Of a DNA stretch of 37,026 nt, positions 4,075 through 37,026 are shown in pieces; the first letter of the stretch is position 1; every line of letters starts with the position of its first letter. The translations under genes and the position numbers were made by a program. The DNA lies in contig JAAZEM010000124.1 of the NCBI GenBank assembly GCA_012512265.1, forward strand, positions 1 to 37,026, read 5' to 3'. This stretch comes from Armatimonadota bacterium (GTDB lineage Bacteria; Armatimonadota; JAAZEB01). The notes under the pieces are model-generated. The model searched no databases. It saw only the letters and a list, made by a program, of their open reading frames with translations, and had not been told where the DNA came from.

Positions 4075-4734
4075 TCACTCGCGATCCCACAGCTGGTTCT
4101 TGTAGTTGGGGTCGGCAGAGTTGGTGATGTTGTTGCCGGTCCAGTTCCCAAGCGGCGCCGTCGCTGGGTAGAACGCGCTGCCCGCCTTGTACCACTTGAC
4201 ATGCCCGTCGACGAAGGTGACGTTGGCGCCATCGCCGTGCCGCCACGCCGGGCGCGCAGTGTAATCATAGGTGGTCTGGTGCGGTGAGTTGATATACACC
4301 CGGCCCACTTGCGCGCCCGTATCATCCCAGGCACCGTCGGCGAAAGCCACCGTCTCTGCGGGGTTCTGGACCGACGCCATCGTGTAGGTGCTGCTGGCAG
4401 AGCCGTTGCCCAGGTAATAGTGGTTGTACCCGTAGCAAACCGACGCGCTCTGGGGGGCAGACGGGCACCGGAGCACGCCCGTGTTCTTCAGATACGGCTC
4501 GAGCATCTTCATCCAGTTGCCCACGTTCGTGAGGTTGTAATGGACCAGAGTCTCGTCATAGTCCTGGGTGTACTGCATCGCCGCCAGGCCGATCTGCTTC
4601 AGGTTGCTCTGGCAGGTGGACTTGCGCGCGTTCTCCCTCGCTCGCGCGAACACGGGGAAGAGAATCGCCGCCAGGATGGCAATGATGGCTATGACGACGA
4701 GCAATTCGATGAGCGTAAATCCCTTCTGCTTCAT
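4075..4734 (-). CDS. DUF1559 prepilin-like protein, copy 1
   Basis: A 219-residue type IV pilin-like protein. The N-terminus [20 protein letters not shown] carries the prepilin-peptidase site (cleavage expected between Gly and Phe, with Glu at +5) and a single hydrophobic helix. The conserved [19 protein letters not shown] follows. The C-terminus has the H-X9-DG signature ([18 protein letters not shown]). Such proteins are expected in the cell envelope as pseudopilins or structural subunits; their real role is unknown. The ATG at 4734 follows GAGGAGGGAACCGT. It is transcribed alone, with an extended -10 box upstream at 4807-4812 and a hairpin downstream. No pilus assembly or type II secretion gene is near. 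Confidence 0.9.
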
Positions 4735-4806
4735 ACGGTTCCCTCCTCTTCCTGCGCGGGGTATAGCACCCCCCTGGTACGGAGACTGTCTGTGCCTCAC
4801 GCCATC

Positions 4807-9373: not shown

Positions 9374-10015
9374 ATGCCGGCGAGGAAAGAGGGCTTCACG
9401 CTGATTGAGCTGCTAGTGGTGATCGCCATTATCGCTATCCTGGCGGCGATCCTGTTTCCCGTCTTTGCCCGGGCTCGCGAGAACGCGCGCAAGTCCACCT
9501 GCCAGAGTAACCTGAAGCAGATAGCCCAAGGGATCGCGATGTACGTGCAGGACCACGACGAGGTGTGCTTCGGAGGCAACGGCTACCAGGGCAACTCTGG
9601 GAACTACCAACTCATCATGCAGCCGTACTTCAAGAACACGAACATCTTCACTTGTCCCAGCCGGGGCTTCTCAGCCTTCGAGTACGGCGGCGATGGAGTT
9701 TATGGCCGGTTCACGCTGTGGCATGGCTACTCGAACATCTACCGGCGCGGGGCCAGCATGGCCCAGATCTCGGCGCCCGCCGAGACCGCGATGGTGAACG
9801 ATGGCTGCCACCCGGCGGTTGAGGGCCCTCGTGGCGCGGTGCCCAAGGTCTGCAAGGGCTTCGATCCGTGCCAGACGACGGTTATCACCGCTTCCCACTT
9901 CTACCACAGCGAGGGGAGCAACGTTGCCTTCTGGGACGGCCACGTGAAGTGGTACTCCTGGCAAAACCTGAGCATTACGGGGAATAACCCGCCTTCCATC
10001 TGGCGCACGAACTGA
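9374..10015 (+). CDS. DUF1559 prepilin-like protein, copy 2
   Basis: A 213-residue prepilin-like protein. After MPARKE it has the [20 protein letters not shown] methylation and membrane segment and [19 protein letters not shown]. The C-terminal H-X9-DG signature reads [17 protein letters not shown]. The middle differs from the other copies: it is rich in Gly, Asn and Tyr ([13 protein letters not shown]) and has several Cys residues ([19 protein letters not shown]). GGGAGGAGGAGTATC precedes the ATG. It is the only intact plus-strand copy and has its own promoter. It is probably processed by a prepilin peptidase and displayed in the envelope. Confidence 0.9.
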
Positions 10016-10293: not shown

Positions 10294-10297
10294 CTAG

Positions 10298-10325
10298 CCC
10301 GCATTATTCATCAGAATGATGCGGG
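10298..10325. mobile_element. Family-2 miniature element, palindromic 28-bp form at a stop codon
   Basis: A 28-bp near-palindrome, CCCGCATTATTC, loop ATCA, then GAATGATGCGGG. It is flanked on both sides by CTAG (10294-10297 and 10326-10329), which looks like a 4-bp target duplication. Its first 24 bases match the left end of the element at 33231 at 21 positions. The right-hand CTAG supplies the TAG stop codon of DUF1559 copy 3 on the minus strand. In RNA it would form a 16-bp hairpin that includes the CTAG flanks, so it may also act as the gene's terminator. A pure terminator without a mobile origin is the alternative. Confidence 0.6.
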
Positions 10326-10952
10326 CTAGGGCGCGTAGCGCCACGGCGCGGCCACGCCCGGCTGGGCTTTTTGCAGCTCGCGCGTGGGGTACCACTTCAC
10401 GTGCCCATCGACGTGGCCCATCACGCCGCCCTCCGAGTGGCGTTTGGGCAGGTAGGTGGCGTGCCGCCGGTAGAGGTAGAAGAAGTATTGCGGCTCGGCA
10501 CGCGCGCCCAGATCCTCGCTATCGCCGAGCAAGATCGTCTCCGCAGGGTTCTCCACCTCCCCAAGATGGGTGCACCAGCCAGTGCCCGGCGAAGAGGGCC
10601 AGTAGCCAAACTCCAGGTAATTCCAGCCGTAGCCCAGCCCGCCATAGCCGGCGTGCTTCATGCTGGGGCACCGGATAATCTCGGCGTTCTTGAGGTAGGG
10701 GTCGAGGAGTTCGTACCAGTAGATGTACGAGCTGCCCTTCGGCGGGCACGCCCCGGGAATGAGCGTCTCGTCATAGTCCTGGGCGTAGCTTAGAACCGCC
10801 ATGATGATCTGCTTCACGTTGGAGGTGCAGTTGGCCTTGCGCGCATTCTCGCGAGCCCGGGCAAAGACCGGGAAGAGAATCGCCGCCAGAATAGCGATGA
10901 TGGCTATGACGACGAGAAGTTCGATAAGCGTGAAACCGGCGCGCCGGTTCAT
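10326..10952 (-). CDS. DUF1559 prepilin-like protein, copy 3
   Basis: A 208-residue prepilin-like protein with the [20 protein letters not shown] start, [19 protein letters not shown], and the C-terminal H-X9-DG signature ([17 protein letters not shown]). It is about 90% identical by eye to copy 4 (11311-11937), same length and strand, so the two arose by a recent tandem duplication. The duplicated unit includes the promoter layout (TTGACG, 17 bases, TATAAT). Copies 3 and 4 read KANCTSN where copies 1, 2 and 5 read KSTCQSN, so they form a subgroup. AAGGAGGGTTTCA precedes the ATG. The stop codon lies inside the CTAG flank of a family-2 miniature element. Confidence 0.9.
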
Positions 10953-11310: not shown

Positions 11311-11937
11311 CTAAGGCGCGAAGCGCCACGGCGCGGCCACGCCCGGCTGGGCCTTTTGTAGCTCGCGCGTGGCGTACCACTTCACATGGCCGTCGACGTG
11401 GCCCATGATGCCGCCATCCAGGTGGCGCTTAGGCAGATAGGTGGCATGCCGCCGGTAGAGGTAGAAGAAGTATTGCGGCTCGGCACGCGCGCCCAGATCC
11501 TCGCTATCGCCGAGCAAAATCGTTTCCGCGGGGTGCTCTACCTGCCCCAGAGTGGTACACCAGCCAGTACCCGGGGAATCGGGCCGGTAGCCAAACTCCT
11601 GGTAGTTCCAGCCATAGCCCAGCCCGCCATAGCCGGCGTGCTTCATGCTGGGGCAGCGAATAATCGCGGCGTTCTTGAGGTAGGGGTCGAGGAGCTGGTA
11701 CCAGTAGATGTACGAGCTGCCCTTCGGCGGACACGCGCCAGGAATGAGCATCTCATCATAATCCTGGGCATAGCTCAAGATCGCCATCATGACCTGCTTC
11801 ACGTTCGAGGTGCAGTTGGCCTTGCGCGCGTTTTCTCGCGCCCGGGCGAAGACCGGGAAGAGGATCGCCGCCAAGATGGCGATAATTGCGATGACGACAA
11901 GGAGCTCGATAAGCGTAAATCCGGGGCGCCGCTTCAT
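11311..11937 (-). CDS. DUF1559 prepilin-like protein, copy 4
   Basis: A 208-residue paralogue of copy 3. It begins [18 protein letters not shown], has [19 protein letters not shown], and ends with the H-X9-DG segment ([17 protein letters not shown]) and a [11 protein letters not shown] tail. By eye it differs from copy 3 at about 19 of 208 positions, mostly conservative changes in the C-terminal half. The ATG at 11937 follows AAAGGAGGTTCACA; the longer open frame upstream is not conserved. It has its own promoter (12002-12030), so copies 3 and 4 are separate units rather than an operon. Two near-identical envelope subunits may be redundant or co-assembled. Confidence 0.9.
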
Positions 11938-14167: not shown

Positions 14168-14901
14168 ATGGCAACACGGATGCGGAAGCGCGGTTTTACG
14201 CTTATCGAGCTACTCGTTGTGATCGCGATCATAGCCATCCTGGCGGCGATCCTCTTCCCGGTCTTCGCGCGCGCGAGAGAGAACGCGCGCAAGAGCACGT
14301 GCCAGAGCAACCTGAAGCAGATCATGATGGGTGTCCTGCAGTATGCGCAGGACTACGATGAGCGCATGCCAACCTACCGCTGGAACAACGCCGCAGTCCC
14401 GAGCGTATGGCTGGACCGTGACAACAGCGCCGCGAATGACCGGCACTTCTGGCTGGAGCGACTAACCGCCACTTCTGGCTGGAGGCAATCCAGCCTTACC
14501 TGAAGAACACCCAGATGCTCTTCTGCCCCAGCCAGAGCTTCGGACCAACCACCCTGAGCAACGGGAAGATGCAGGCGGCCTATGCCTACAACGGCGCGAT
14601 GAGTGGCAAGAGCCTGGCCGTGTTCCAGAACACCGCCGATAAGATCTGTATCGGCGACATTGGACAGAGGTATACCGACCGCACGCCTCCTGGCTACGTG
14701 GAAAACTGGTTCATCAACAGCGACGGCAGCACAAACTGGAAACAGATATCGTGGTGGACATCCATCCACCTCGGGGGCGGCAACTACGGCTACCTCGACG
14801 GCCACGTGAAGTTCCACACGGAGAAAGACAAGGTTTTGGGCCCAGTCCTCGCCACCGGAAGCAGCCTCCCGGGCGATCAGACCGGTTACTGGATGCCCTA
14901 A
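14168..14901 (+). pseudogene. DUF1559 prepilin-like gene, copy 5, frameshifted by a 26-bp insertion
   Basis: The first frame reads a normal DUF1559 N-terminus ([39 protein letters not shown]) but shifts at about 14459 and stops at 14501-14503 after QSSLT. The family continues in another frame to 14901 with MLFCPSQSFGP and a C-terminal H-X9-DG (HLGGGNYGYLDGHVKF). A 20-bp direct repeat (14439-14458 and 14465-14484, one mismatch) adds 26 bases. Removing one unit restores [20 protein letters not shown], the exact family consensus. GGAGGGATCTCA precedes the ATG, so the promoter-proximal part is intact. It may be a true pseudogene, a reversible slippage switch or an assembly error. Confidence 0.85.
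14439..14484 (+). repeat. 26-bp-period direct repeat that breaks DUF1559 copy 5
   Basis: Two 20-bp copies (19 of 20 identical, sharing CACTTCTGGCTGGAG) are separated by CGACTA. The period of 26 is not a multiple of three, so it shifts the frame. Confidence 0.9.
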
Positions 14902-19225: not shown

Positions 19226-19368
19226 GCACATTCCTGGCAAGAGTGCTCCCTATTTCCAGAAAATAGCGCGGATTCCGAGAAAACCGCGAACCCCGCACGA
19301 TAGCCCCCTGTCGGTTGCGCGGCTCTGAGTGCCCGCGCCCCACGGCGCCAACTGTTTCGCAACCGAAG

Positions 19369-19605
19369 CTGGAATTCCGGCATAAGGAGAGGGCCGCCCA
19401 CACGCGCGGAGCTCGAAGCTCCGCGCTGCTTTCCGGCAAAGCCCCCTCGGGGCTTCTCCTCCCAGCCACCGCCGTTTTGAGACATCTGGGAGTATCCCCA
19501 ATCCAGCCCGGCAGGGCTTCGCTTGCAAGCAGCGCGGTGATTTATCGCCGCGCGCTGGGTTGCGCACTGCCACCGTGGCTTCGGATTCCTTATGTCGGAA
19601 TCTCA
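19369..19605. mobile_element. Family-1 miniature inverted-repeat element, copy A
   Basis: A 237-bp element with terminal inverted repeats: left CTGGAATTCCGGCATAAGGA; the right end is its near-complement (16 of 19 positions, ending CGGAATCTCA). It is flanked by GCAACCGAAG (19359-19368) and GCAACCGAGG (19606-19615), a 10-bp target duplication with one difference. Inside are several hairpins, such as GCGCGGAGCT/AGCTCCGCGC and AAGCCCC/GGGGCTT. No transposase is encoded, so it would need one in trans. The core is nearly identical to copy B and, as far as it is visible, to copy D. Confidence 0.85.
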
Positions 19606-19786
19606 GCAACCGAGGGAACTGCCCGCCCTGTTGCCTCTCGCCCAAATCCGGTTGCCCACGGGATCGGCAGCCGGAACGGGACGCGCGCGTTGGCATGACA
19701 TCTGCCTGTGTCGTTCGCATCTACCCGCGCGGGGGTATAAGGATCACACCGTCTGATCCGGGTGATTCGGCCAGGGGGATGTGTCG

Positions 19787-25935: not shown

Positions 25936-26039
25936 CGGAAGCACTCTCCTGGGGAGCGGAGCAGGCAGAATACGGGCCAGAAGGGATTTGGATGGGAGGG
26001 TTTGCCTGGCCGCGCCAGGAGCGCCACCTCGGATGAAGG

Positions 26040-26337
26040 CTGGGATTCCGAGATAAGGAATCCGAAGCCTCGGAGGCAGCGCGCAACCCGGCGCGCGGCG
26101 ATAAAATCACCGCGCTGCTTGCAAGCGAAGCCCTGCCGGGCTGGATTGGGGATACTCCCAGATGTCTCAAAACGGCGGTGGCTGGGAGGAGAAGCCCCGG
26201 AGGGGCTTTGCCAGAAAGCAGCGCGGAGCTTCGAGCTCCGCGCGTGCGCGCGGCCCTCTCCATCCGTGGTGTCGAAGGTGGCGCACGTGTGGGAGAACGC
26301 GGGCCACCCTATGAACGTTCCCTATCTCGGAATCCCA
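26040..26337. mobile_element. Family-1 miniature inverted-repeat element, copy B
   Basis: A 298-bp element in opposite orientation to copy A. The left end is CTGGGATTCCGAGATAAGGA and the right end is its reverse complement with one change in 19 (ending CTCGGAATCCCA). It is flanked by perfect 10-bp duplications CGGATGAAGG (26030-26039 and 26338-26347). The core is nearly identical to copy A. About 60 extra bases, absent from A, lie next to the right terminus (about 26262-26318). It carries no transposase. Confidence 0.9.
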
Positions 26338-32182: not shown

Positions 32183-33166
32183 ATGCAAGTAGGCCTCGAT
32201 ACATTTACCATCCGCGAGCTGGGGCTCGATCCCTTCGCGACGCTCGACTTCATCCGGGAGAACGGGCTGGAGGGCGCGCAGTTTGGCTGGCTACGCGGCC
32301 TCAGCCCGGAGCTCGACGCGGGGAAGCTGCGGGAAGTACGCGCCCACGCGGATGAGCTTGGTCTCTACACGCACGTCTCGGTGCCCACGTGCAACCCGCA
32401 CCTGGTGCAGGGGAGCATCGACGACCACCTGGCGGAGATGGCCCGGCAGATCGAGCTGGCCGCCCAGTGCGGGTGGCACGAGCTCCACTCCTCGCTTGGG
32501 AACGGCCCCGAGCGTTACGAGCACCCCGTGCGCTGGCCCCAGCACCTCGCCGATTCCGCGGATCTGATCCGACGGCTCGGGCCGGTGCTCCGCGCGCACC
32601 AGAGCCGGATCAACTTGGAGACTCACGGGGATACGACCACGTTCGAGCTGGTCCGCCTCATCGAGGATGTGGGCCCGGATATCGCCGGCATCTGCCTGGA
32701 TACGGCGAACGTCCTCTGCCATGCCGAGGACCCGGTGATGGCTGCCCGGCGTGCGGCACCCTACACGCACCTCACCCACACGAAAGACGCGATCATCTAC
32801 TTCTCCGAGACGGGTTACACCCGGCAAGGGCGCGCTCCCGGCCAAGGCTGCCTCGATTGGGAGGCGACCCTGCCGATCCTCGGCGAGTTCTCACCCGACC
32901 TGCCGCTCTCCATCGAGGATCACAAGTGGCTCTTCCCCGCCCACATCTTCGACCGGCACTGGCTCGCGCTCCATCCCGATCTCACCCCGCACGAGCTGGC
33001 GCAGGTGGTGAAGCTCGCGGCGGAATGCGAGAAGCGGATCACCAGGGGCGAGCTGGAGCAGCCCGAGGAGTATGAAGCAATCCCCTATCGCGACCAGATG
33101 ATGGAGCGCCTGCGCTTCGGGCGCGACTACCTTCTGGGCGTGCTGGAGCGCCGGGGCTTGCGATAG
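32183..33166 (+). CDS. Sugar phosphate isomerase/epimerase-type TIM barrel
   Basis: A 327-residue AP-endonuclease-2-like barrel starting MQVGLDTFTIRELGLDPFAT. Metal-ligand candidates are Glu in INLETHGDTT, Asp in GICLDTANVLCH, His in THLTHTKDA, and Glu in LSIEDHKWLFP. GAGGAGAGAGTG precedes the ATG at 32183; an adjacent GTG at 32180 is less likely. It is longer than the usual 270-280 residues, with a C-terminal helical extension of about 50 residues (HELAQVVKLAAECEKRITRG onward). It is coupled to the Gfo/Idh/MocA gene. A family-2 miniature element lies 64 bases downstream. Confidence 0.85.
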   Translation: MQVGLDTFTIRELGLDPFATLDFIRENGLEGAQFGWLRGLSPELDAGKLREVRAHADELGLYTHVSVPTCNPHLVQGSIDDHLAEMARQIELAAQCGWHELHSSLGNGPERYEHPVRWPQHLADSADLIRRLGPVLRAHQSRINLETHGDTTTFELVRLIEDVGPDIAGICLDTANVLCHAEDPVMAARRAAPYTHLTHTKDAIIYFSETGYTRQGRAPGQGCLDWEATLPILGEFSPDLPLSIEDHKWLFPAHIFDRHWLALHPDLTPHELAQVVKLAAECEKRITRGELEQPEEYEAIPYRDQMMERLRFGRDYLLGVLERRGLR

Positions 33167-33230
33167 CACTCGGAGTGGAGCCCCCACGGGCAACTTGTGC
33201 AGGAGCCACCGCTTGCTGGCGCGGCGCTAT

Positions 33231-33394
33231 CCCGCATTATTTGTCAGAATAATGAAAAGAAGTCTCTCTGCCAGGCGTGGCGCGGATTCGTGGGCACTGT
33301 CTCCGAAAACACCCTGCTTCCGGGCGCTTGTAGCGACAACGGTGTGTCACCAGACAAGAGACTTCTCTTGAAGTATTCTGGCGAATACTTCGGG
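33231..33394. mobile_element. Family-2 miniature inverted-repeat element, 164-bp form at a stop codon
   Basis: Imperfect terminal inverted repeats of about 37 bases bound this element: left begins CCCGCATTATTTGTCAGAAT (33231), right, read inward, begins CCCGAAGTATTCGCCAGAAT; the inner ends AGAAGTCTCT/AGAGACTTCT are exact. CTAT flanks both sides (33227-33230 and 33395-33398), a 4-bp target duplication. Each end holds its own hairpin, for example GAAGTATTC/GAATACTTC (33370-33391). The right-hand CTAT supplies the TAG stop of the acyltransferase. It has no coding capacity. A 4-bp CTAN target is seen in IS5-related elements, so a parent of that kind is possible. Confidence 0.75.
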
Positions 33395-35251
33395 CTATGC
33401 CGCCGCGCCTCGCCGGCCGTGGTATTCCAGGAAGCCCGCGGCGCCATCCTTGCCCATGTAGCGCTCGAGGAGCTTCGGGTCGGTCTTCGAGAGATCGACC
33501 AGGACGAGCACGTCGAGGACGTCGCTGAAGTCGGGGTCGACGTTGAAGCCCAGCGGGCAGGCGCCGAGCTTCAGGTAGTTCTTCAGCAGGATCGGCACGC
33601 CCTTCTGGTCTTCCTCGATGTGCGAGATCACCTCCGAGATGCCGTCGATATCCGCGGCGTCTTCGAGGGCAGAATAGGTGAGCGCGCGCCGGCGCAGGCC
33701 AGGCTTGGCGCGCCGGAAGGGGTTGCGCGGGCGCACGAAGCGTGACCACGGGTGCATCTGCTCCACCTGCCGGAGGTAGGCGACGATCAACTGCCGCGAG
33801 ATCACCTGGTAACCGTTCGAGATGCTCACCGGCCCGAAGAGCGTCTTACAGTCGGGGTGCCGGCAGACGTACTCGCCGATGCCTCTCCAGAGGAGGAGCA
33901 GCCCGGCATAGGAGCGCTGGTACTCCGGCCGGACGAAGGAGCGGCCCATCTCTAGCGCCGGACCCATCAGGTTGAACAGCTCCCGATGGTAGCGGAAGAG
34001 CGTCTGGGTGTACAGCCCCCCAAGACCATGGCGCGGGAGGATCTCATCGGTTCGCCCCAGACGGTAGGCGCCCATGATCTCCTGCTTTTCGCGGTTCCAG
34101 ACGAAGAGGTGGAGGTAATACTCGTCAAAGGCGTCGATATCCAGCGCCTTGCCGGTACCCTCGCCGGCGCCGCGGAAGGTGTACTCGCGCAGGCGCCCGA
34201 TCTCGCGCAACAGGTGCGGGATCTGGTTGGCCCGGGCATAGCAGACGAGGTGCTCTTTGCTCTCCACGAGGATCTGCTCCTCGGGCAGTGAGCGGACTTC
34301 CTCCGCCAGCACCTCGGCGGGCTCCGCCTCGACCAGCGGCTCCAGCTGGGCCACCTTCGGCCGGCGTATCGAACGGCGCGCCGGGGTCGCCTGCGAGCGC
34401 GCACGCATCCCCAGGAGGTAGGTCCGGTCGCGCAGGAGATCCACCATCTCGTCATCGGTGTAGGCGCAGAGCTTGCGTGAGGGGATGGGGTCGCCTACGC
34501 GCGCTTCGATCACGCGCCCGCGCTTGTTCACCATCTCGCGCGGGAGCATCACCGTGCGCAACAGCGGGTGCGCCAGACCCAGCATCTGAAAGAGCGGGCC
34601 GTTGCACCCGGCGAAGTAGACGGGAAGCGCGGACGCCTTGGTATGGCGGAAGAGGCGCGCGATGGTGCCGCTCCACTTCGGATCGGTCACCTGCAGGCTG
34701 CGCAGGTGGAGATGCGACACCGTGCCTGAAGGGAAGATCGCGAGCATGTCTCCCTCTTCCACCCAGCGGATCGCCTCGCGCAGGCCACGGATGTTGGCGC
34801 GCGAAGACTCAGGACGCCCAAAGGGATCCACCAGGATGAAGGAGTCGCGCAACTGCGGGATCCGCCCGAGGAGGAAGTTGGCCATCACCTTCACATCGGG
34901 GCGCACCAGGCGCAGCAGCCAGATCAGCGCCAGGCCCTCGATGCCGCCGAAGGGGTGGTTGGCCACGGCAATCGCCGGCCCTTGCTTGGGAATGCGTGCC
35001 AGATCCCTTTCGGTGATATCAACCCGCGTCTCCAGGATGGAGAAAACCGCCTCGATGAAACGAACGGGATCCTCCTCTTTTCTGACGCTGGCATAGATCT
35101 GTTCCATCGCCCTCAGAGCGACAATGCTCTCCAAGGGGGGTGCCAGGTGGGAGAAAAGCCGCTGGCCGACTGGGTTCTTGCACCGGAGGGCAAGCTTAAA
35201 GATCCGCTCTGATTGGTCACTATGCGTCTGCATGTCGCACCCCAAGATCAT
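33395..35251 (-). CDS. Bifunctional acyltransferase, OlsF-like (PlsC-type plus GNAT-type)
   Basis: A 618-residue fusion. The N-terminal half is a PlsC-like O-acyltransferase with ANHPFGGIEGLAL (97-109, catalytic His99) and FPSGTVSH (173-180). The C-terminal half (about 310-500) is an OlsB-like N-acyltransferase of the Acetyltransf_5/GNAT type: FDEYYLHLFVWNREKQEIMG, AYRLGRTDEIL, ELGRSFV-like EMGRSFVRPEYQ and LFGPVSISNGY. The order matches OlsF, which makes ornithine lipids by acylating ornithine twice. These phosphorus-free lipids replace phospholipids when phosphate is scarce. A C-terminal extension (from about 500) is also typical. The ATG at 35233, after GGGGTGCGAC, is an alternative start. 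The stop codon lies in the target duplication of a miniature element. Confidence 0.8.
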   Translation of the reverse strand: MILGCDMQTHSDQSERIFKLALRCKNPVGQRLFSHLAPPLESIVALRAMEQIYASVRKEEDPVRFIEAVFSILETRVDITERDLARIPKQGPAIAVANHPFGGIEGLALIWLLRLVRPDVKVMANFLLGRIPQLRDSFILVDPFGRPESSRANIRGLREAIRWVEEGDMLAIFPSGTVSHLHLRSLQVTDPKWSGTIARLFRHTKASALPVYFAGCNGPLFQMLGLAHPLLRTVMLPREMVNKRGRVIEARVGDPIPSRKLCAYTDDEMVDLLRDRTYLLGMRARSQATPARRSIRRPKVAQLEPLVEAEPAEVLAEEVRSLPEEQILVESKEHLVCYARANQIPHLLREIGRLREYTFRGAGEGTGKALDIDAFDEYYLHLFVWNREKQEIMGAYRLGRTDEILPRHGLGGLYTQTLFRYHRELFNLMGPALEMGRSFVRPEYQRSYAGLLLLWRGIGEYVCRHPDCKTLFGPVSISNGYQVISRQLIVAYLRQVEQMHPWSRFVRPRNPFRRAKPGLRRRALTYSALEDAADIDGISEVISHIEEDQKGVPILLKNYLKLGACPLGFNVDPDFSDVLDVLVLVDLSKTDPKLLERYMGKDGAAGFLEYHGRRGAAA

Positions 35252-35562: not shown

Positions 35563-35693
35563 GTAGGGAAGGGTACCGCTTCATCTGGGGGGCGATGCAT
35601 CCGGGCGTCGACCCCCACAGGCCCCAGGGAAGGAGGGCGACCGCGCGGCGGTCGTGGGGAACGCGCAGGCGTGAACAACCGCCCCACCCCGAT

Positions 35694-35850
35694 CGCGCGG
35701 TGGTAAATCACCGCGCTGCTTGTGGACGAAGCCCTGTCGGGCTAGGCTGGGCTGCACGCGGGCACCGGTACTGGCGCGGGCTGGCAGGGGGAGGCCCGCA
35801 AGGGGTTTTGCCGGAAAGCAGCGCGGAGCTTCCAGCTCGGCACGCCGGGT
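35694..35850. repeat. Decayed family-1 element core, copy C
   Basis: Patches match the copy B orientation: CACCGCGCTGCTTG, CGAAGCCCTG.CGGGCT, GGGGTTTTGCCGGAAAGC and AGCAGCGCGGAGCTTC. The middle is replaced by unrelated sequence, and I cannot find terminal repeats or a target duplication. It is probably an old or recombined copy. Confidence 0.6.
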
Positions 35851-36850: not shown

Positions 36851-36860
36851 CGCGCGTGTG

Positions 36861-37026
36861 CTGGGATTCCGAGATAAGGAGAAGGCCGCCCGCACGCGTG
36901 GAGCTCGAAGCTCCGCGCTGCTTTCCGGCAAAGCCCCCTCGGGGCTTCTCCTCCCAGCCACCGCCGTTTTGAGACATCTGGGAGTATCCCCAACCCAGCC
37001 CGGCAGGGCTTCGCTCGCAAGCAGCG
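36861..37026. mobile_element. Family-1 miniature inverted-repeat element, copy D (cut by window end)
   Basis: The element begins CTGGGATTCCGAGATAAGGA, identical to the left end of copy B, and continues with the copy A core through GGGAGTATCCCCAACCCAGC to the end of the window. By eye it differs from copy A at only a few positions. The presumed left target site is CGCGCGTGTG (36851-36860). The right end is not visible. Confidence 0.85.

Follow-up and report, generated by a model that had tools for sequence, protein, structure and literature searches.

An IS1380-type MITE family with an unusual excess of insertions on stop codons in an Armatimonadota bacterium

We found a new family of IS1380-type MITEs with an unusual excess on stop codons in the genome of an Armatimonadota bacterium. 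The overlap with stop codons exceeds that of matched target sites about 2.5-fold, and the gene ending there is unbroken. With high confidence, we regard the family as MITEs with IS1380-type ends and NTAN target duplications, likely mobilized in trans by an IS1380 transposase and overlapping stop codons above matched sites.

The first member was seen in the window, the whole stretch of 37,026 nucleotides analysed here, as a 164-bp element between two convergent genes, with CTAT on both sides (Table 1). The overlapped stop codon is on the minus strand, so that the element comes after the stop of its target gene, and its exact placement on the TAG of an acyltransferase gene, as originally predicted, was confirmed. 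The unfilled site of the window is GGCGCGGCG-gcATAG-CGCCGCGCC. The related genome G002 encodes a homolog of the target protein that is 64% identical across residues 4-617 of 618, indicating that no conserved part of the protein was lost to the insertion. This homolog is eight residues longer, ends with TGA and has no element behind its stop; a homolog search in another genome (G001) gave no match. The element is short and non-coding and has terminal inverted repeats, target duplications and many copies, which are the properties of a MITE. An Rfam scan of the window at gathering cut-offs gave no family.

Table 1. Positions of the element, the solo hairpin and their target genes in the window
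Feature	Position	Strand	Remark
IS1380-type MITE, 164 bp	33231..33394	-	Family orientation CCCGAAG...GCGGG is the minus strand
Left 4-bp target duplication, CTAT	33227..33230		
Right 4-bp target duplication, CTAT	33395..33398		TAG stop of the target gene (minus strand) at 33395-33397 (CTA)
Left terminal inverted repeat, 37 nt	33231..33267	+	Contains the inner hairpin 33235-33254
Right terminal inverted repeat, 38 nt	33357..33394	-	Contains the inner hairpin 33370-33391
Target gene, GNAT/acyltransferase protein, 618 aa	33395..35251	-	Gene call and domain scan
Convergent neighbour, xylose isomerase-like TIM barrel (AP_endonuc_2)	32183..33166	+	
Solo 28-bp hairpin	10298..10325	+	Two element ends back to back; DNA fold -10.5 kcal/mol
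CTAG duplication left of solo hairpin	10294..10297		
CTAG duplication right of solo hairpin	10326..10329		TAG stop of gene 10326-10952 (minus strand) at 10326-10328
Paralog of gene 10326-10952	11311..11937	-	89% identical over 300 nt; equivalent gene end, no hairpin

The element's own genome, 97% complete, comprises 5.03 Mb in 219 contigs. A BLAST search of it with the element returned 46 matches at E<=1. Thirty-one are full or nearly full copies of 142-167 bp, which diverge from the consensus by 7.6% on average in the alignment, and the remaining matches are fragments, contig-end pieces and relics. Four solo 28-bp hairpins, each consisting of two element ends back to back, are also found in this genome; because the ends were located by pattern, the counts may miss copies whose ends have decayed badly. 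The tandem pair L018/L028 was treated as one site, giving 30 full-copy sites and four solo sites. The truncated L032 and L033, the contig-end L034 and L035, the outer host copy of L021 and a relic at C105:17738 are outside these 34 sites, and a short derivative in L036 was excluded from the later counts. In L021, one copy is nested inside another, and the rejoined flanks read as an element copy. This nested copy, together with the hairpin-free paralog in the window, whose gene end reads as a natural unfilled site for the solo hairpin, makes unfilled sites visible.

Beyond this genome, no whole-element DNA match was found in 60 relatives at E<=0.001. The hairpin-end pattern with one mismatch allowed occurs in six of 291 genomes of the phylum, with 58 ends in the element's own genome and one or two in each of the five others. 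In a set of genome contigs, from which records of the own genome may be absent, the end pattern gave 26 matches. One of these, L062, lies in a short contig of another genome record and is the L027 locus (99% identity over 2860 nt); its element carries a 22-base tandem duplication. A search of that genome for the element returned this copy only, split into two matches. Another, L051, is a solo hairpin apparently identical in sequence to L150 (see below), and the other genome-contig matches had no partner end downstream. A single end-pattern match in viral contigs was taken by eye as chance.

Two further observations concern the surroundings of these elements. Another repeat family, marked by a strong GC hairpin (GCGCGGAGCTTCGAGCTCCGCGC), is found in the window at 19368-19607, 26039-26261, 35689-35844 and 36860-37026, and a sequence like this hairpin repeat adjoins the IS1380-type element in L032, L034 and L035. 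The window also contains a likely pseudopilin array, with repeats and genes at 4547-4737, 9374-10015, 10326-10952, 11311-11937 and 14180-14503; N_methyl and DUF1559 domains were identified in the two members scanned, 10326-10952 and 11311-11937.

The target duplication is an exact 4-bp repeat at 19 of the 30 full-copy sites, matches at three of four bases in eight and is mismatched in three. Exact duplications also flank two of the four solo hairpins. With the 46 BLAST matches, this supports the predicted mobile element with a 4-bp CTAN-type duplication. All 21 exact duplications are NTAN: CTAG (10), CTAA/TTAG (5), ATAG/CTAT (3), GTAA (1), ATAA (1) and GTAG (1). The GC content over the 16 flanking bases is 79% at these 21 sites; for NTAN sites it is 63% in non-coding DNA and 68% at stop codons. 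CTAG occurs at 210 coding and 167 stop or non-coding sites, and CTAA/TTAG at 195 and 214, respectively, in sequence that is 84% coding; CTAG and CTAA are scarce in the coding DNA of this 65% GC genome. The targets show a weak dyad symmetry (P=0.006 against matched sites, P=0.02 against shuffled flanks), which might serve as a cue. A palindromic target as the sole cause of the stop-codon link was set aside on the weakness of these values.

We called genes with a home-made codon-usage gene caller, trained on the window and run on 817 kb of the 5.03 Mb and on the 34 unfilled sites; the 817-kb background has 620 called genes and is 84% coding, and missed genes would raise its expected stop share. 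A called stop codon is overlapped at 15 of the 30 full-copy sites and two of the four solo sites (17/34), the overlap in L018 being with a TGA on an inexact duplication and dependent on the side kept. Among the exact full-copy sites, 12/19 are on stops against 3.5 expected from 4-mer-matched non-coding and stop sites (P=1e-5), in a background that retains element-adjacent sites; the later own-genome tests omit them. When the two exact solo sites are added and the background is matched for both 4-mer and flank GC, 14/21 are on stops against 5.05 expected (P=4e-5). Because the idea arose from the window, its two cases were also removed, leaving 12/19 against 4.73 expected (P=4e-4; non-coding and stop sites matched for 4-mer and flank GC). 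Thus, the predicted stop-codon link stands as a statistical excess. Neither an absence of duplications nor a lack of closeness to stop codons, the two outcomes that had been named against the prediction, was observed. Composition alone was rejected as a full account of the link, since the excess survives 4-mer and flank-GC matching; composition explains part of the excess, not all of it.

The genes bearing these stops look real. Pfam was scanned for the two window genes and for 14 others, without L018, and 13 of these 14 gave a match, that of L011 lying below the family cut-off and L020 giving none. Several of the matches extend to a few residues from the gene end. The neighbouring genes are convergent in 8/17 cases and tandem in 9/17, while 102 of the background TAG/TAA stops are convergent and 191 tandem. 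Two of the 30 full-copy sites (L005 and L017) are inside genes. In L005, the copy at 1504-1667 between exact CTAA duplications interrupts a PRA isomerase gene of the tryptophan pathway; in L017, the copy is in a histidine kinase gene, close to its 3' end.

An excess on stops could also arise by retention only, if the element inserted at any NTAN and survived on stops but was lost from genes, promoters and operon gaps. Although most NTAN sites are coding, the 21 exact sites comprise 14 stops, six other non-coding positions and one position in a gene, as such losses would leave them, and the available part of PMC9208149 reports that IS1380 elements are over-represented between genes. However, the excess holds not only against non-coding sites but also against sites in the 60 nt that follow stops (14:1 observed, 8.65:6.35 expected, P=0.002). 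Moreover, some of the stop copies lie in tight tandem gaps of 5 bp (L008), 10 bp (L024) and 18 bp (L011), which should retain insertions poorly. Retention only is a serious candidate, which we nevertheless lean slightly against.

The element has CCCGCATTATTC at one end, in the window copy CCCGCATTATTT, and CCCGAAGTATTC at the other, read from that side; these ends fit the IS1380 group. The IS1380 transposase domain (PF13701) is present in 57 of the 291 Armatimonadota genomes, and six of 30 PF13701 loci examined have both ends like those of the window element. CTAG flanks five of the six on either side, and L122 is flanked by CTAA and CTAG; a CCCGNANTATTCAYGA-like sequence follows the CTAG or CTAA, with the terminal sequence being CCCGNATTATTC-like. 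The most divergent ends among them are CCCGCATTTCTC (L116) and CCCCAATCATTC (L119). The other 24 loci have one such end or none, except that L140 has two, separated by only 880 bp and accompanied by CTAG and CTAA. Three of the six two-ended loci were also recovered independently, by searching for inverted ends with duplications. Among these six, the open frames ending on the duplication have 424 codons in L118, where however an antisense frame is equally long, 127 codons in L121 and 49-64 codons in L117, L119 and L122; L116 has none.

The window element shares with IS1380-derived MITEs the CCCGNATTATTC-like terminal sequence and a duplication of 4 to 5 bp, here CTAN. Judged by its CCCGNANTATTC ends and CTAN duplications, it is an IS1380-type MITE and not an IS5-type element. 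The latter had been proposed in the original prediction. IS5 elements make 4-bp duplications of the YTAR type, which would suit the duplications seen here, but the ends and the duplications match those of the IS1380 elements of the phylum, and the IS5-type assignment is now very improbable. Hairpin ends, solo hairpins and a tetranucleotide at the hairpin foot would also suit a REP/RAYT-like palindrome mobilized by a Y1 transposase. To our knowledge, REP insertion makes no direct target duplication, whereas exact direct duplications such as CTAA/CTAA and GTAA/GTAA are present here, and this origin can hardly be maintained.

The IS1380-type transposase itself was not found in the element's own genome, either with PF13701 at E<=0.001 or with NF033539 at E<=1 (97% complete, 219 contigs), so the link to IS1380 is drawn from the ends. 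An autonomous copy with matching ends, which the original prediction had suggested looking for, was likewise not found in this genome. From the ends alone, the helper is likely an IS1380 transposase, and it may have been lost or left unassembled.

Similar elements exist elsewhere in the phylum. A stricter end pattern (TARCCCGNATTATTCAYRA) was found in 29 of the 291 genomes, at up to 53 per genome, and the reversed control gave 0. Sixty stretches were examined from nine genomes with this pattern. They contain 19 elements of 71-310 bp that have ends of this type and an exact duplication, the latter being a requirement of the search. Seven of these 19 MITE sites are on a stop codon against 2.76 expected (P=0.011), a modest excess over a null that is matched for 4-mer only and includes element-adjacent sites. 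Three of the 19 are inside called genes. Other IS1380-type MITE families with NTAN duplications are L225-L230 (G012, about 83 bp), L195-L205 (G033, about 72 bp), L235-L241 (G237, 199-310 bp) and L247-L252 (G278, about 220 bp). Solo palindromes of IS1380-type ends also occur, with 19 bp between CTAGs in L133 (G134) and 28 bp between ATAG and CTAA in L150 (G250).

We then considered the hairpins. Each end of the element folds as its own palindrome, with a DNA fold of -3.4 kcal/mol (z -5.85) for the left inner hairpin and -7.1 kcal/mol (z -8.45) for the right one. The original prediction had the element turning a stop codon into a stop plus terminator. This part was not borne out, as a scan of 33100-33500 for a GC hairpin followed by a T run gave 0 sites, and the intrinsic terminator reading was rejected.

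Alternatively, the stop copies may have been kept for host use, with their hairpins stabilizing or processing the 3' ends of RNAs in a REP-like manner. In the family orientation, RNA folding of the window copy is far stronger than that of shuffled sequences (z -4.97; z -3.33 for the other strand). In the 31 aligned copies, the first-hairpin stem, in the right terminal inverted repeat, has three substitutions in 557 cells against 261 in 2529 cells of the core, and its singletons are depleted (1/557 against 37/2529, P=0.009). The second-hairpin stem has nine singletons in 485 cells, no fewer than the core. Two positions of the outer arm are not the same in the two ends; the partner positions of the inner arm are changed as well, and both hairpins therefore still pair. 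These paired differences fit selection for pairing or templated correction of quasi-palindromes, a known mechanism. The region of the second hairpin is 1.7% diverged in stop copies and 4.9% in the others, a nominal difference, with a few of the others gapped or misaligned there. The first hairpin, however, is equally conserved in both groups (1.6% and 1.5%), and covariation in the consensus fold is weak, with double changes in two of 32 pairs. Conserved ends are also explicable by transposase binding, and the empty terminator scan adds to the points against host use. We therefore consider retention through host use unlikely, and a host role of the hairpins is only a possibility.

From the element, its ends and duplications, the match to the IS1380 loci and the stop excess, we infer how an IS1380-type MITE would come to lie on stop codons. 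A DDE transposase would bind the CCCGNANTATTC ends and insert the element into NTAN sites of GC-rich DNA that are cut with a 4-nt stagger; this stagger would give rise to the 4-bp duplication. The favoured CTAG and CTAA are rare in coding DNA and would be supplied by TAG and TAA stops, making gene ends a large share of the harmless sites. At a stop, the duplicated 4-mer would be N+TAR (N+TAG or N+TAA) in the sense of the gene, with the element beginning at the next base; since the 4-mer includes the stop, the gene would keep its stop and its protein. Selection would remove most insertions within genes. Scarcity of the 4-mers and selection against genic insertions would together account for part of the stop bias, and the remaining excess of about 2.5-fold points either to an insertion preference or to retention. 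A preference at the time of insertion for gene-end DNA, possibly for GC-rich dyad-symmetric sites, is possible and is put forward tentatively; some copies, in tandem gaps of 5-18 bp, weigh against retention alone. Whether IS1380-type elements in general have a built-in stop-codon preference, in which an NTAN target and a gene-end context form a safe harbour and leave a hairpin after each stop, is a more doubtful proposition.

Mobile elements in gene-dense genomes need harmless sites. A transposon family whose 4-bp target coincides with TAG or TAA, with copies there above the matched background, would offer a simple safe-harbour rule, checkable wherever IS1380 elements occur. Genes that acquired a hairpin immediately past the stop codon would then form a natural set. 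If the proposed preference is true, it would allow spread through dense genomes without breaking genes. A stop-codon preference of IS1380 is not described in the available parts of PMC3281130, PMC10813416, PMC10969869, PMC2229807, PMC7290912, PMC9208149 and PMC4133298, a set that covers few subscription papers and lies outside ISfinder.

Among known systems, the closest are the IS1380 sequences and MITEs of the phylum-mates, which share the terminal CCCGNATTATTC and the 4-bp CTAG/CTAA duplications. Unlike IS1380 sequences, the present element has no transposase, and it has 37/38-bp ends that are each palindromic, 28-bp solo hairpins and the excess on stop codons. IS1247 of the IS1380 family is listed with 5-bp repeats in the part of PMC3281130 available. 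In the accessible part of PMC10813416, IS1380 serves as an outgroup to piggyBac; the piggyBac superfamily resembles our element in its TA-centred 4-bp target and CCC ends, a likeness of target and ends only, but is eukaryotic and uses TTAA. REP and BIME hairpins occur at the 3' ends of genes, as the present hairpins do, but our element duplicates its target, which REP/BIME, as far as we know, do not. A link between target and stop codon is also known for ISPsp10 (IS5 family, IS427 group), where, according to the available part of PMC4133298, the target supplies a stop; in that case the transposase gene gains a stop, whereas here the host genes keep their own. Finally, the YPAL and RU-2 repeats resemble our element in having targets at or near dyad symmetry, and differ in their 3-26 bp duplications and in that no stop-codon link is reported for them in the part of PMC2229807 available.
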